From: Pelagophyceae sp. CCMP2097
Lineage: Eukaryota > Sar > Pelagophyceae
Assembly: GCA_026770575.1 (NCBI GenBank)
Contig: MU657169.1
Coordinates: 647,442-711,441 of the forward strand
DNA length: 64,000 nt
Reading direction: 5' to 3'
A program made the translations under genes and the position numbers. Positions 11,724-51,600 of this stretch are shown here, piece by piece; the first letter of the stretch is position 1, and every line of letters starts with the position of its first letter. The notes beneath the pieces were generated by a model. It was not told the DNA's origin. It was given only the letters and a program-made list of their open reading frames with translations, and searched no databases.

Positions 11724-14700
11724 TTAGTACATGGGAGGGGGGTAGGGGTACATGCCCGGCGGCGGCGGCATTCCGGGCGGGTACGTGCCGTCGGGCTGGA
11801 AGCCGGGCGGCGGCATGCCGGGCGGCGGCATGCCCGGCGGGTACGTGCCGTCGGGCGGGAAGGGCGGCGCAAAGACGCCCTCTGGCGGGAACGGGGCCTG
11901 GAAGCCGTCGTGCTCGTGCACGTGGTCTGAAGGCTGCTGCGAGATGACGGTCACCGTCGACGCCTTTGGCCGCTGCGTCCCGGGCGTCCAGGCCTTGACG
12001 TACTCGATCTCGTCGCCCTTCGCCAGCGGCTGGCCCGTGACGACGTCCAAAGCGTGGACGAAGACGTCCTCGGACCCGTCGTGCGGCGAGACAAAGCCGA
12101 ACTTCTTGTCGTAATCGAAGAACTTGACCTGTCCGCGCACGCGCGTGTACTTGGGCAGCGCCTTTGCCTTTGCCGGCGGCGGCACAAAGCCGGGAGGCAG
12201 CGGCTCGGCCGCCTTCGGCGCTTGCGGTGCGGGCGCCGTTTGCAAAGCGTAAGCCGGAGGCGGCGCGCGGTACGTGCCCGGCGGCAGCGCCGCGTCCTCC
12301 GCGCCGACGGCGCCGCTGCGCTCGTCGGGGCCCGTCTTCATTGCGCCTTCCGCGTGGGCCGGGCAGACGCGCGTCGCCTTGCAGCGGCCCTGCATGTCGC
12401 CGCCCCGAGTAAAGTGCACGCTGTCGCCCTTCTTGATCGGGCCGATAGCAATGTCGAGGCCTAGGGGACACGGCGTCAGAGGAGTCGAGGCATTGGAAGT
12501 GTGACTCGGAAGAGGGGGGCGTGTCTCGGATCAGTCCATCTAGTAATGAGGTCGTCTCCATTATTTGCGACGAGACTAATCATCTGTCAGAGTAGCTGGT
12601 TCGTTGTCGTCACTTCCGGTTCGCCCCTCTTCGTGCATCGAAATCACAAAGAAACGCACCGTGGAGGAACATGTTCTCGCCGCCGACGTCGGGCGTGATG
12701 AAGCCAAAGTTCTTCTCGATGTCGAACCAGAGGCACAAGCCGGCGAAGCGGCCAGGCGGCGGCGGTAGCACGGGGCCCATCTGCGCCTGCTTGAAGGCCA
12801 GCTCGTGCGCCGTCGGGAGCGCGGGGCCCTTGCCGTAGGCGCGCTTACGGTTCGGCGGCGGAGGACCGTTCGGGTAACGAGAAGTCGGGCGAGGGTCGTA
12901 GTCGTCCTGCTGCTGCGGCGGGCCATGGCCGTAGTCCTGGGGCGGGCCGCGGCCGTAGTCCTGGCCGCGGCCGTACTGGTCCGGCGGCGGCCCTCTGCCG
13001 TACATGTCCGGCGGCGGCCCGCGGCCGTCGTACATGGGCTGCTGCATGCCGCCGCCGTACATCTGCTGCTGGTTGCCGTACATGTCCGGCGGCGGGCCGC
13101 CGTACATCGGCGGCTGGTTGCCGTACATTTGCGCGTTGCCGTACATGTCCATGGGAGGCTGCGCGTTGCCGTACATGTCCGGCGGGCCCGGCGGGGCGCC
13201 GTACATCTGCGGCGGCGGGCCGCTGCCGTACATGGGCGGCGGCTGCGCGTTGCCGTACATGTCCGGCGGCTGCGCGTTGCCGTACATGTCCGGCGGGCCC
13301 GGCATGCCGTTGAACATGGGCGGTGGGGCGTTGCCGTACATCTGTGGCTGCGCGTTGCCGTACTGGTCCGGGGACGGGCCGTTGGGAAAGCTGGACGGCG
13401 GCTGCATGTTGCCGCTCAAGTCCATGGCTTGGCTCATGTCCGGCGGCGCGGCGCCAAACGCCGGCTGCTGCGGCGGCGAGTTGTTGTACGACTGCGGCAC
13501 GCCGTGCCGAGACGACTGCGCCGCGCCGCGCTGCATCGGCGCGTCGTCTTCGTCGGCGGCGGCCGTCGGGTCGTACTCGGCGTCGCCGTCGTCGCCGCTC
13601 TGCTGGCGCGCGACGTCTGCGAGGACCTTTGCTGCGATCTCGGCGTCGTCCACGACTTGGATCTGGCTCGCCAGCAACTGCACCGTGCGCCGGCGCTGCG
13701 GCAGCAGCACGGCGTAGCGCGACGTGCCGGCATCCCATGACTGCGCGATGCCGAGCTGGTCGCGGAGTTCTTCGGACGGGACCATGACGCGCACCGCGCG
13801 CCCAACAGACGCACCGGGCGCCGCGGGGCCGGCGTCGCGCGGTGCGGGCGCGGCAGACGCGCTATCCTGCCGCGCACTTGACGCCGCCTTGTCGCGCGTG
13901 CCACCGTCGCCGTCGGCCTCGGCGCGGCGCGTCGCGGCGAGGAACTGCTCTTGCGTGATTTCGCCCGCCTTGAACGCCGCCTCGTAGCGCCGGAGCTTAA
14001 GCGATTTGGCGCCCGACTGCCGCCCAGACGCGTCGGGCGCCGCCGGCGCCCCGCGCTGCGCGTCGTCGCGCCGCCGGGTTTCTTCGCCGCGCCGAGACGC
14101 CTCGTCCTCGCGGCGCCGCAAGTCGTCCTCGCGGCGGCGGGACTCGTCGTCGCGGCGCCGTGTCACGTCGTCGCGGCGGCCGCGGTCGGCGCCCTCGTCG
14201 CGGTCGCTGCGCGCAGAAGAGCGCGGCGCCCGGCGTTCGTCCGCGTCGGCGTCGTGCAGAGACGACCGCGGCGCGTCGTCGGGCCGCGAAGTCGGGCTCG
14301 GCGCCGCGGCGAAGGGCGCGCTCCTAAGGTTTGCGAAAGTCGAAGCAGACAAGCAAACGTGTCACTCGACTCTCGAAAGGCTTTTCGAGGCTCAGAAAAA
14401 GTTGTTCGATTCCGGTTAAGCCGTTGTCTTCACGCATGCGGTCGGAAGAGGGAGCTGTTTTACATCACTGCCGTCGCACTCTCCAGTAAGAGCCCCCAAC
14501 AAGCAAGGGGACGCACTGCGCGGCAGTGAGCGTCTGTTGCGGGCACTCGTGGACGTAGTGCCCGCCGCCGCCGCACTTGTGGCAGGCGTAGCCCGCCGGC
14601 GGCGGGCCCGTCATGGCACCGAGGAGCACCGAGGGGCAGTCCTGCACGTAGTGGCCTCCGACGCCGCAGCGGTGGCAGACGTACGACGGCGGTGGCGCGT

Positions 14701-15921
14701 TACTCCGCTGCTGCTGCTGCAGCTGCGCGAGGAGCGCCTGCTGGTCCGACGCCGATGGCGCCTCGCTTGTGAACGCGTCGGCTTCGACGCCCAGCGCTGA
14801 TAGCACCTCCAAGGGCACTTGGACTATCGCGCGGTCGCCGCCCGCGGGCGCCACGTAGCCCTTCGGTCGCGAGATGCGCAGGCCTTTGCCGCCCGCCGCC
14901 AGGCCCTCTGCGGGGATACCTATTCGGTGGGGTCACGCCGCGAAGGGGTCGGGAAAAGGCCTCCTTGCTCTTTAAAGGTAAGGATCAGTCCATCTAGTAA
15001 TGAGGTCGTCTCCATTATTTGCGACGAGACTAATCATCTGTCAGAGTAGCTGGTTCGTTGTCGTCACTTCCATACCCGCAGGGTATCTCAACGCTTCGAG
15101 AAACGCACCGGAGAAGAGGAGGAGCGTCGAGGAGACTTGGGCTGAGCGGCACTCGAGGAAGGCATGATCCGTGCGCGTGCGCTGGTCGTCGAGGCCAGTG
15201 GGCCCCTGCGCTCGGCCACGCACGATGGCGGTGCCGCCGCGCGCAAGCAAAGCGGCGTCGGCGTTGCCCGGCAGCGCCTCGCCGAGGGCGGCGAGGAGGC
15301 CCGCCAAGAAGCCTGCGAGCGTCTCGTAGGACGTGCCCGGCTGCAGGTTGCCCACGTAGAGCTCGGCGTGCCGCTGCTGCTTGGCCAGCGCCTGCGCGTC
15401 GACGCCGGCGGGCGGCTGCGCGTCGACGGCGTCCGGCGCGCCGGCCTCGGGTGCGTTGTCCCACTTGGACGAGCCAGTTTTTGAAGTCGCGATTGAACTT
15501 GAAGGCTTGGATCTCCTCGAGTCCGCAGCGCGCTCGGGCTTGTACTCCTTGGACCCATCCTTCGAGGACGCACCGCGGTCGCGCCGCTTCCGCTTCGCGC
15601 GAGCCTGAAACGGCGAGGTGAAGAATGAAACAGTCAAAGGGGGCCATCAGACGAGGGCCGCCCCGGGCGCGCCGCTCCTTTTAAAAGTGTGGGTGGACTC
15701 ACATCGTCCTCGGAGTTTTCCGCCGACGAGGCGTCCTTGCGCCGCCGCCGGCTGTGGGCGTGGTCGGGCGATGCATCGCGCTTGTCGCGCGGCGCCTCGG
15801 GCGAACGCGACTGCGACGACCGCCGCCGCGACTTGGGCGGGACGCGGTCGCCGCCTCGCGCCGACGAAGCGTCCGGCGACGGCGACCGGCGCCGGCCCCG
15901 TCGGCGAGCGTCGTCCGCCAT
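11724..15921 (-). CDS. RS-RRM-zinc knuckle-cold shock RNA-binding protein
   Basis: Large RNA-binding protein, about 1100 residues. Exons 15704-15921 (boundary within a base), 15109-15604, 14517-14907, 12660-14323 and 11724-12460 agree in phase. Order: Arg/Ser-rich domain; SSKWDNAPEAG as in U2AF65; one RRM with RNP2 ELYVGNL and RNP1 DHAFLECR; GLRISRPKGY; two CCHC knuckles (CHRCGVGGHYVQDC and CHKCGGGGHYVHEC); an Arg/Asp/Glu-rich helix; a long tract of MYGN-type repeats (PPDMYGNAQ); cold-shock domain 1 (LWFDIEKNFGFITP); cold-shock domain 2 (KFFDYDKKFGFVSP); a Pro/Gly tail. U2AF-like pieces suggest 3' splice-site recognition or mRNP packaging. The part from 14323 down has no in-frame ATG, and a GTGCGT donor at 14516 joins it to the knuckle exon in phase 2, hence one gene; two genes remain possible. 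A 42-nt in-frame intron may lie within the RRM (about 15180-15225). Confidence 0.78.
12528..12617 (-). repeat. 90-bp intronic element, copy A
   Basis: Identical over 90 bp to 14982-15071. It sits inside the intron 12461-12659, beginning about 42 nt after the donor. Both host introns start GTGCGTTTC and are about 200 nt, longer than most introns here. Confidence 0.95.
14982..15071 (-). repeat. 90-bp intronic element, copy B
   Basis: Identical to 12528-12617, in the same orientation relative to transcription, within the intron 14908-15108. Immediately beside it on the donor side is the short palindrome ATACCCGCAGGGTAT. Confidence 0.95.
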
Positions 15922-44259: not shown

Positions 44260-45480
44260 ATGGAGTCGGGCCCCGCGCCGTCGGGGTTCTACATCGTCGT
44301 CAACGGACAGATCGAATCCGCAGAGGTGCCGAAACAGCGCCGCGGACGTGCATCGCCGGAGGGTGCTGCCAGAGGGGCCGCTTCCTCCCCGAGAGAGCCT
44401 GTACTCTAGAGAGCCTATACGCTCGGTGGACGACGCGATCGCATCTCCGGATCGCACCGCGCACACGGTCCCACCGAGCGACGAGCGTTTGCTCGAGTGC
44501 TCTCGTCGTCCGGTGGCGACGCCGTTGCCGCGGTGACGCCGTCGGCGCGGAGACGTCCGGCGACGTCGGGCGAGGCCCTCGCACACGCCCGACGCTCGAG
44601 AGTGGACGCGCGCGCCATCGAGAGGGTGGACACACGTGGCACCGAGCTCAAAGTGCACGCATCGATGTGCCAGAGGCCCCAAAGTACGCGGGCGCCCCCG
44701 CCCTTGCGACGGTGCGAGACTCTGGCGTGCTTAGTTCGCGGAGGACGACTTGTACGTGCGCTACGGCTTTTCCTTCGGCGCCGACTGGACCATCGTCGAC
44801 GGCGTCGAGACGGGCCTCTCGCAGTCCGTTTTTTCGGCGTCCTCCGGAGCCTGCGAAAAGGAAGAGGCGTGGCGTGTGAATGCCGCGTCCGCGCAGGATC
44901 GCGCGGAAGAACACGGGCGCGGACCAGACGGTGGTGTGGAACTTTCCTATCGACATTGCTTTCAAATCCACAAACGCGTTCGGCTGGCCTCGAATGAGCA
45001 TCTCCGTCTACGGAGTCGACCAGTTCGGCAGAGACGTCGTGCGCGGCTACGGCTCGGTAAGACGCAGAATCGAAAAGCGGCCGGATTTTGTTTGGTCGCG
45101 AAGATGCGCCCTTCGAAACAGGATTGGACATCCTGTGATTTTTATTACATTACATTACATTACATTACATTACATTACATTACAGCCGAGGAAGCTCCTA
45201 TCAACCTCCCTAGGTCTTGATCCCGACGTACCCCGGCGCGTACGTGCGATACGCCCACGTCTACACGCCCGTGCCGAGCTCGTTGTGGCAGCGGCTCTCG
45301 TCGTGGTTCAGCGGGTCTCACGCGGAATTCTACGACTCCAAGTTTGTCACTCGGGGCGAGCACCGAGACGTCACGCGCGTCCAATTCACCGGCGTCGTCA
45401 AGGTCAAGCTCGACGTCGTCACGCGCGGCATGGGCGCCATTGGGTTCTCGCCTGCAAGCGCGACGACGCACGACGACTAG
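44260..45480 (+). CDS. B9D1: B9 domain-containing protein 1, ciliary transition zone
   Basis: Component of the MKS/B9 complex at the ciliary transition zone. Exons 44260-44325, 44735-44823, 44897-45056 and 45214-45480 agree in phase. Matches to B9D1 run end to end: [66 protein letters not shown], then [19 protein letters not shown]. About 193 residues, the normal family length. Its presence means the organism makes, or recently made, a flagellum. Intron 1 is long (409 nt) and intron 3 contains a pentanucleotide microsatellite. Confidence 0.93.
45144..45183. repeat. (ATTAC)8 microsatellite
   Basis: Eight perfect copies of ATTAC lie in intron 3 of B9D1, starting 87 nt after the donor. The last copy plus AG makes an acceptor-like TTACAG 28 nt upstream of the acceptor used. 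Confidence 0.95.
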
Positions 45481-48608: not shown

Positions 48609-51600
48609 TTACTCCGCCGCATTCCTCCGTGGCCGGATGTTCACCCAAGGAGCCAGAGGTTCGCCTGCTGCCGCGCCAAATCGACCTAGAGCGGTCGGTT
48701 GCCAAAGTGACCCATCCATCGCGCGAAGTGACCCATCCATCGCGCGTCGTCGCGGCGGTTTCGGGGCGCGGCAGCTCGCCGCGAGGATGTGCGCGGCGAC
48801 GCGCACGCCCGGCTCGAGCGATGCGACCTGGGAAAGCGGCGGTGTTCGCTTCAGCGCCTTGTACCGTTGTACGACGGACTCGCGAGGGACCAGCGAGACT
48901 CGCGCCGCCGAAAGGAGGAGCACTGACCGGCACGAAGGTCATCGCGGGCGCGTGCGCCGACGGGTCGGCCAGGAGCTACGCGCGTCGAGTAGGGTCGATG
49001 TTGCAATGCGGCCGCGACTCACTTTGCTCAGCGCGGGCCCGAGCGCCGCGCAGAGCACGGGCTTCGCGAAGATGCGGACCCGCGCCCAGTGCCTACGTCG
49101 ACGACTCGCCCGTGTGACGGTGCAGGAACCCCGACCTCGGAACAGTCCCTTTTGAAAAGCTTGCGGAGCAACGCACTCGTAGCGCAGGTGGCCGCCCCGG
49201 AGCATCTCGGTGCAAGCGTCCCGCAGGAGCGCCGCCAGCGCGTCGGCCGACGCCGCCGCGCCTGGCACGTCGCGTGGGGCGGTGCCCTCGCACGGTTGCG
49301 GCCTCACCGTCGCCTTTGAAGACTCGGACGACTCCCGCGACGAACGAATGGGCCACGACCGTCGCGCGCGCCTCCCACGCCGCAGCCGAGAAGACGGCGC
49401 GCCGCGCGCGGCCGTGCGCGCTGTGCGTCAGCGCGACGACCTACGGCGGTCGCGCGGTCGCGGACGCCACGTGCCTCTTTTGACGCGCCTCGAGCTCGGC
49501 GCGCGTGGCCATGGGCAGCGCCGGCACTCGGACGACGACGACGGGCACGTCCGCGGCCACGGCGCGCTCGACGTGCGCGCGGACCGCCCGCCAAGGGACG
49601 GCGCCGTCGCCCGAAACGTACACGACCTGCGGCGCTGCGTCGAGCTTTCAACAGTCGACCCGCGCCGATTCGCAGACGACGCAAGACGCACGGCCGACGC
49701 GGCGTGCGCGAGGCACGAGTCGCACGGCGTCGCGCGGAGGACCTGCGACGACGCGTCGACCGCGCGCGCCGTGGAATCACGCCATTAGACGACGGGCAGC
49801 GTCTTGCTCCCAGCATTGAGGCTCTGACCGCTCGCGACTCGGTCATCGCGCCGTTTGCCACCTTCACCGGCGCGGTTTTGGACGGCGTCTGCGTGCTTCG
49901 CGGCGAGGCGGAGCTCGGCGCGCAGGCCGCCCGGTGCGACCGTCATCGTCGCTGGGTCGAGGCCGATCTGCCCCGAGGTGAAGACAAACGCGCCACCAAT
50001 GATGTTGGCCTGGCAGTACGGCCCGATGCAGACGGGCGCCCACGTCGAGAGCGACCGCACCTGCGTTTCAAGCGTGAGATTACGCGAGTAGGCGCTTCTT
50101 GCGCCACCGCGTCCCAGGATCGCGCGTCCGAGCGTCGGACGCGGGCTCTCGCGTAGAGCACGTCCCTTTGCGAATCTGGGCCGACGAATTCGCAATCGAT
50201 GAGGGCGGCGCAGCCCGGCGGCAGCGCGGCCGTGACGCAGGACCTCGACGGCGGCCGCGCGGCGGCTGAAGCGTCGCCGGATGTGGCATCTGCAAACTCC
50301 GAAATGTACGCCGCGTTCGCCGCCGCAAAGTGCGATATGTCCGCAACAAACAAGTGCGCAAAGACGACGGCACCGAGGTCGAGGCCCCACGGCGCCAGCA
50401 AAGAGCGGATTTTGCGGAGGCACGCGGTGACCTGCGCCGCCGTCTCCACCGCGCCAGGCGGAGACGACGTCGGGCACGCCACGCCGGAGACCGAGGCGAG
50501 GCCGCCGGCGCCGGACCAGACCACGCGCGCTTCCAAAACCGGCGCCGGCGATGATAAAGCGCCGTCGTCGTCGACGTCGTCGACGTCGTCCTCGAGTGAT
50601 ATGTCATCCACGGCGATTTCGTCTTCGTCTTCGTCGTCGTCATCGTCTTCTTCATCGTCTGCCGCCGCGTCGTCCTTTGGCTCGGTGTGCCATTTAAGGA
50701 CGCTTAGGACGCCGACGGCGCCGCAATCGCGGGGCGCGTTGTCGAGCCTGGCCCAACCATCGAGGGGCGTCGAGGAGAGGGGCGTATAGTAGGGGCTTAC
50801 CTCAGCACCTCGGTCTCGTCGAGCACGAGCCTGCGCGTTTTTCCAGGAACGAGTGCTTTGCATCAAGGTCGCACCTCCGCTTGAACCGTGCGCAGTCGAG
50901 GACGAGCGACTCGTACTCGCCGCCCTCGCCGCACTCGTGGAAGCCGAAGCGGTCGTGGAGTCTGCGGAACTTGGCCCGCGTCGACGCGAGGTCGAGGCGC
51001 AGCCTGAGGCCTCTTTGTGCGACTCGCACAAAAAAATGACAACGTTTCATGAAAGGCCGAGATCGCCATTGCATTCTCAAGAGTCGGTGAGGTCCACGAA
51101 ACGGCAGACTGACCCGAGGTCCGTCTCCGGCTCGAGGCCGAGGCTTGCTGTCTTGACGACGATGGCGCGGACCTGCCCAAGGGCGTCGGTGCGGCCTTTC
51201 CGTTTACGAGGAAGCACCTTGCGCATCTCGCGGAGCAGCGCGCGCTGCGGCCGCATCCAGAGGTAGCTCAGCGACCGCAGGCCGAGGCGAGAGCAGACGT
51301 CCTCGACGCGCGTGCGCTGGTACCTAGTGGGAGGGTGAGGCGCGGCCTGGAGCGGGGGCCACGAACGGCGCTTCAAGGGTGGGGAGCATGGGGCGACGAC
51401 CGGCCTTCCACGGGTGGCAAGGACGGGGCGACTCGCGTCGAGAGGATGGCGCCGCTGGCGACGGCGGCGACTTCGGGGTGCGCTTTTTTTACGTCTGCGA
51501 GGAGGTCATAGAGGTCCTCGACCTCGTCGCCGGCCGCCGCGCCCGCGTAGACGAGGCTCTGGCACGCCGCCGTCCCGCGCAGCGCCCGGCGCACCTGCGC

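Follow-up and report, generated by a model that had tools for sequence, protein, structure and literature searches.

Two introns of a single gene of Pelagophyceae sp. CCMP2097 carry the same 90-nucleotide sequence, here termed the 90-mer, which a first-pass annotation had taken for an introner-like element. The gene lies in the 64,000-nucleotide stretch of contig MU657169.1 analyzed in this work (positions 647,442 to 711,441 of the forward strand, referred to as the window). Judged on its sequence, the 90-mer is in all likelihood the gene for a box C/D small nucleolar RNA (snoRNA), present as copies inside ordinary introns and not as a mobile element which creates introns. It is an undescribed (in Rfam) member of that known class.

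The identity of the two window copies was confirmed. They agree letter for letter in the same orientation (90/90), the match can be extended by no base on either side and, as annotated, their flanks differ. When the window was compared with itself by BLAST (E up to 1e-3, low-complexity filtering applied), no other pair reached 30 nt at 90% identity or more, and their E value of 2.3e-40 excludes chance. A BLASTN search of the 90-bp core against the genome (E up to 10), the check suggested with the first-pass annotation, returned a further copy at C37:308685-308774 (100% over 90 bp), and a 210-bp intron query matched itself and two other places, those over its 90-bp part alone. This third copy sits in a modelled intron (262 nt, GC-AG) of a gene for a DEAD-box helicase, the spliced protein of which aligns without gaps to a solved helicase at that junction. 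The three copies found in the 66 Mb genome (all three candidates scored) are a lower bound because parts of the assembly read N, including 84,307 of the 264,000 bases of the stretch of contig C6 in which the window lies. With three separate loci on two contigs, different flanks and two host genes, the probability that we are looking at chance or an assembly artefact is negligible. The elements of the two window copies, from the box and guide analysis, are as follows.

12528-12617, minus strand: copy 1, C/D snoRNA, 90 nt; C box 12607-12613, D' guide 12591-12602, D' box 12587-12590, C' box 12577-12583, D guide 12536-12545, D box 12531-12534
14982-15071, minus strand: copy 2, C/D snoRNA; C box 15061-15067, D' guide 15045-15056, D' box 15041-15044, C' box 15031-15037, D guide 14990-14999, D box 14985-14988

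Along the coding strand the sequence of the 90-mer is GGAA-GTGACGA-...-GAACCAGCTACT-CTGA-CAG-ATGATTA-GTCT...-TACTAGATGG-A-CTGA-TCC, that is C box, D' guide, D' box, C' box, D guide and D box in this order between GGA/TCC ends. The C box GTGACGA at nt 5, the D box CTGA at nt 84 and the GGA/TCC terminal stem give the arrangement of a C/D snoRNA, and internal boxes are also present (D' CTGA at nt 28; C' ATGATTA, with one mismatch, at nt 35). The predicted RNA of about 90 nt would have the ends GGAAGTGACG and CTGATCC. We scanned 312,001 bases, of which 91,117 are N, for the combination of C and D boxes, a stem of at least 3 bp and a ribosomal RNA (rRNA) guide of at least 9 nt and obtained six matches, against two in the reversed control. 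These were the three copies of the 90-mer, an RNA in another intron of the host gene (intron 3, see below) and two others, and both guides were present only in the three 90-mer copies.

Complementarity to rRNA was examined with proxies, which are partial eukaryotic large-subunit (LSU) sequences from prokaryote assemblies, typed by Rfam, and not the organism's own 28S. In all four LSU proxies the longest perfect complementarities to the 90-mer, of 12, 10 and 9 nt, fell within one 30-nt stretch, with the D' guide pairing over 12 nt and the D guide, which stops one base short of the D box, over 10 nt; a fifth LSU proxy had the same target sequence. The longest run to small-subunit (SSU) proxies was 9 nt and lay away from any box. 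None of 20,000 mononucleotide shuffles of the 90-mer produced three runs of at least 9 nt within 40 nt of LSU and 67 produced two. When both guides were shuffled by dinucleotides (20,000 shuffles), the D' length was reached in 9 cases, the D length in 231 and both in none, and in 8 shuffles both guides attained at least 8 nt inside a 40-nt stretch of LSU.

We infer expression of the 90-nt RNA, the methylation it would direct and the exact sites. Once spliced out, the intron would undergo debranching and be trimmed down to the 90-nt RNA, with C/D proteins protecting it, and this RNA would guide 2'-O-methylation in the conserved 28S segment AGACTAATCGAACCATCTAGTAGCTGGTTC. By the +5 rule the D' guide may mark a G (AGTA[G]CTGG) beside the conserved A that is marked by snR60/U80, which we take to be position 817, or, with a register shift of one, that A itself (AGT[A]GCTGG). 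By strict counting the D guide would point to a U (CCA[T]CTAG), at which no site is known to us. The assignment of the D' +5 position to the G adjoining the conserved A is tentative and based on the proxies and on the site spacing in the portion of the PMC3511168 table available to us, where this A appears as Am815. A bolder reading, which we consider unlikely, is that in this snoRNA absent from Rfam three antisense segments (the two guides, which overlap, plus a piece at C') cover nearly all of the 30-nt 28S stretch, that it serves as a folding chaperone and as a methylation guide at undescribed positions, and that it is now spreading through introns of the lineage by copying of an intron-processing intermediate.

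A number of observations weigh against the snoRNA assignment or its predicted target. The C box is one base off RTGATGA, the folding energies of the 90-mer are no different from those of shuffles, and no Rfam family was found on it either at the gathering score or at relaxed E-values (Rfam matches at gathering score in the whole window, 0). One of the two unrelated scan matches also has a 12-nt guide, so that guide length alone is not decisive, and a stricter scan of the window (stem of at least 4) gave four matches which included copy 1 and did not include copy 2. The intron of the third copy is longer than the others (172 nt without the 90-mer) and requires a GC-AG boundary. Counted strictly by the +5 rule, the predicted positions of both guides miss the methylation sites known to us. 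The LSU proxies were fetched with a 26-nt 28S core which holds most of the target, and because the fetch pattern contains the target their mutual agreement is no independent evidence; they also stop short of the last part of the LSU, the furthest reaching model position 2671 of 3401. When the organism's own 28S was sought with the core pattern (up to 2 mismatches) only a stray fragment on contig C57 was found, and a second rRNA core pattern had no match in the genome.

The stray fragment (C57:9982-10007, minus strand) is 28S-like over about 45 nt by eye and holds most of the snoRNA target stretch; the surrounding 20 kb (6,810 bases N) contained neither further rRNA core words nor an Rfam match. 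A 5.8S rRNA match of 55 bits, with a core of about 75 nt by eye, was observed inside other sequence at C16:27178-27330, where 0 of 8 rRNA core words occurred in the surrounding 15 kb. A viral contig with the 28S pattern looks chimeric and was dropped; in its duplex listing the same 12-nt match came first. The 29-nt end of the 90-mer was absent from viral contigs.

The exons and introns of the host gene are a model derived from a spliced open frame, known from the DNA alone, and comprise the following features.

11724-15921, minus strand: host gene model of five exons (15921-15703, 15604-15109, 14919-14517, 14323-12660 and 12460-11724), spliced open frame of 1172 aa
15605-15702, minus strand: intron 1, 98 nt, GT-AG, in which the scan gave no C/D candidate (gene model and scan)
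14920-15108, minus strand: intron 2, 189 nt, GT-AG, holding copy 2 (gene model)
14324-14516, minus strand: intron 3, 193 nt, GT-AG, holding a second, different C/D snoRNA candidate (gene model)
12461-12659, minus strand: intron 4, 199 nt, GT-AG, holding copy 1 (gene model)

The earlier statement that both window copies lie in introns of about 200 nt of one gene agrees with this 1172-codon model (199 and 189 nt), in which the copy-1 and copy-2 introns are both phase 1 by the modelled exon lengths. The gene product contains cold-shock domains (CSDs) and zinc knuckles (CCHC) by Pfam, and the alignment of a CSD crosses the exon junction of the copy-1 intron; no relatives of the protein were found at E 0.001 among the 7984 candidates scored. 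A U2AF65-like RRM had been suspected in exons 2-3 and is not claimed (weak PDB match, E 0.15; no Pfam domain).

All three copies are intronic and sense-oriented. Their ends precede the 3' splice site by 62, 67 and 79 nt, a conserved distance as expected for intronic C/D snoRNAs, and 37, 42 and 93 nt separate them from the donor; the intron-3 RNA lies 65 nt upstream of its 3' splice site and 44 nt from its donor. In N. crassa 45 of 55 C/D snoRNAs are intronic, mostly 41-60 nt from the 5' splice site, according to the part of PMC2780460 at hand. External stems pairing the intron flanks were equalled in stability by 48 of 1000 shuffles for copy 1, 721 for copy 2, 9 for copy 3 and 720 for intron 3. 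Two introns hint at such stems and two are without them, a suggestive pattern which is not used as evidence.

That the 90-mer is an introner, a transposon-derived element whose insertion created these introns, is in our judgement very improbable. It would account for a repeat that recurs unchanged in a pair of introns of one gene and in a third intron elsewhere, and introners are known in Aureococcus, with some families taking both splice sites from the target (PMC9860276, in the part available). However, only three copies were found, as opposed to at least 41 matches when a dispersed repeat of the same genome was searched for in a comparable way, with 40 of 202 candidates scored. No splice site lies within the 90-mer, and the donor- and acceptor-side parts of the introns are not shared, so that without it unshared remainders of 99 and 109 nt are left in the window introns and of 172 nt in the C37 intron; the snoRNA-free intron 1 measures 98 nt. 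The first-pass annotation had drawn attention to the donor region GTGCGTTTC. Both introns do begin with it, but it is no part of the repeat and was rejected as such, being the usual donor of the gene: GTGCGT starts three of the four introns, among them intron 3, which is without the 90-mer and begins GTGCGTCCC, and the 9-mer shows no clear enrichment over the window (3 occurrences against 1.25 expected, with 14 of 100 shuffles reaching 3).

An inspection of flanks and target-site duplications, also suggested in that annotation, turned up nothing in favor of insertion: an abutting target-site duplication or direct repeat was seen at 0 of 3 copies, the flanks are unrelated except beside copies 2 and 3, and the ends of the 90-mer are complementary over 3 bp only (by eye). 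In the section of PMC9860276 available to us, evidence of target-site duplication is given for 49 of 130 introner families and terminal inverted repeats for 72 of 177, which makes these features common and not universal, and families which carry neither splice site exist. Many introner families are without a target-site duplication or inverted repeat, and the absence of these features here is therefore weak evidence. Copy number, the unshared remainder of the introns and the snoRNA anatomy, which an introner leaves unexplained, weigh more against this origin than do the missing duplications and inverted repeats. Of the proposal that a recent copying event had spread an intron, the copying stands, with three identical copies in three introns, and the spread of an intron by an introner does not.

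The dispersed repeat used for comparison has a variable (ATTAC)n end and varied copy lengths, as at C37:314037-314129, and a truncated copy is found in the window at 45121-45171 (minus strand). We read it as resembling the 3' end of a long interspersed nuclear element (LINE). Seven copies were examined. One on C37 is bounded exactly by GT and AG, leaves frames open across the join and looks like a repeat that acts as an intron; around the other six no joined open frame was seen, by a crude test in which several copies extend past the removed stretch. The family looks to be mainly an ordinary repeat. A sub-threshold Rfam match to mir-598 at window positions 50498-50593 (plus strand; 27.7 bits against 69, E 0.14) is probably due to chance.

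The RNA in intron 3 was detected by Rfam below the gathering score and by its genome copies.

14390-14471, minus strand: snoR30/U36-like C/D snoRNA candidate

The Rfam scores were weak (snoR30, 22.2 bits with a gathering score of 60; snoU36a, 18.9 with a gathering score of 45). Addition of this candidate to the two copies of the 90-mer places snoRNA candidates in three consecutive introns of the host gene. Paralogues were found at C15:540448-540529 (93%, 82 nt) and C176:63214-63281 (87%, 68 nt), the matches lying inside the predicted RNA, and snoRNA copying in this genome therefore goes beyond one family. In a three-way alignment by eye no change was seen in the D' guide or in boxes D', C' and D, and other positions vary. 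The last base of the C box differs, with only the window copy departing from RTGATGA there, and one terminal stem pair is changed on both sides from G-C to A-T in both paralogues (by eye). The flanks of the window copy are unlike the others, those of C15 and C176 being alike over about 10 bases upstream, and the C176 paralogue lies 52 nt before an acceptor if a GC donor (GC-AG model) is accepted. No convincing rRNA target of the intron-3 RNA was found in the proxies.

Near the C15 paralogue, in the segment C15:540048-540929, a possible transfer RNA (tRNA), tRNA-Leu(CAG), with a 25-nt intron was observed at positions 231-333 of the segment, and the snoR30-like paralogue follows 65 nt downstream (399 onwards) on the same strand. 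The tRNA was among three ARAGORN calls at a lowered threshold, the default threshold giving none. The arrangement recalls plant tRNA-snoRNA pairs.

As to the origin of the identical copies of the 90-mer, the snoRNA segment was probably copied recently into pre-existing introns, by RNA-mediated copying or short gene conversion. Copy 1 has nothing in common with copy 2 or copy 3 in the sequence adjoining the 90-mer. Copies 2 and 3 are alike over 105 nt at 98%, which adds 12-13 nt downstream and 2 nt upstream, and shuffles as good were obtained in 1 of 3000 cases downstream and 372 of 3000 upstream. Taken with the lengths of the intron remainders (close to 98 nt in the window, 172 nt on C37), this comparison of flanks fits the transfer of a snoRNA segment into existing introns, and since the 12-13 nt shared by copies 2 and 3 lie past the predicted mature 3' end the copied piece at least once exceeded the mature RNA.

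Transfer of the mature snoRNA into introns by retroposition (snoRT-like), which has been proposed for animal snoRNAs and is a recognized route for snoRNAs according to PMC3412847, is possible but doubtful here. In its favor, the identity of copy 1 with the other two stops exactly at the predicted mature ends, as such a route would have it, and the genome holds the dispersed repeat whose variable (ATTAC)n end and varied lengths we liken to LINE ends. There is, however, no abutting target-site duplication and no A-tail (by eye), and the downstream flank common to copies 2 and 3 would not be carried by a mature RNA.

We are similarly hesitant about the suggestion that the copies are old paralogues which gene conversion or extreme constraint has held identical, an origin compatible with the snoRNA identity. 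It would suit flanks that are dissimilar except where copies 2 and 3 adjoin them, and the 93% and 87% paralogues of the intron-3 RNA indicate that families persist. Against this, positions other than the boxes and the D' guide do vary in that sister family, and constraint alone is therefore not expected to hold 90 of 90 positions in three copies. Recent copying of the snoRNA segment is the origin we prefer.

Among the matches listed from the published snoRNA, introner and stramenopile literature, no title is evidently on this 90-nt family. For U80/snR60, the sites given in the available portions of the sources are LSU Am815 in yeast (PMC3511168 table) and, for the D' guide of CD48 in Neurospora, Am797 (PMC2780460). 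Like U80/snR60, the 90-mer has C/D anatomy, is intronic (as U80/snR60 is in Neurospora) and has a D' guide pairing with the same conserved 28S stretch. It differs in that its strict +5 position is one base away, on a G, in that no Rfam family matches it, and in that its D guide pairs with an overlapping stretch of the same region and not with the Gm906 site. What is gained is a C/D snoRNA family unrecognized by Rfam and a host gene with candidates in three consecutive introns.

With the introners of Aureococcus and Micromonas the 90-mer has in common that it is a short sequence repeated within introns. Unlike them, it carries no splice sites or target-site duplication, was found in three copies and has the anatomy of an RNA gene. 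A false introner is thereby removed, and a general trap is exposed, in that repeat scans take intronic snoRNA copies for introners. Within the parts of the sources available, snoRNAs are duplicated into neighboring introns in sponges (PMC3412847), form multigene families in plants and Chlamydomonas (PMC7671301) and, as mobile intronic snoRNAs, migrate between host introns in primates (PMC3511168). As in those cases, the same snoRNA is found here in introns of one gene and in an unrelated host gene. Unlike the sponge pair, an H/ACA snoRNA at 94% in the portion of that work seen, all three copies of the 90-mer found are 100% identical. They offer a clean case of apparently recent snoRNA copying.

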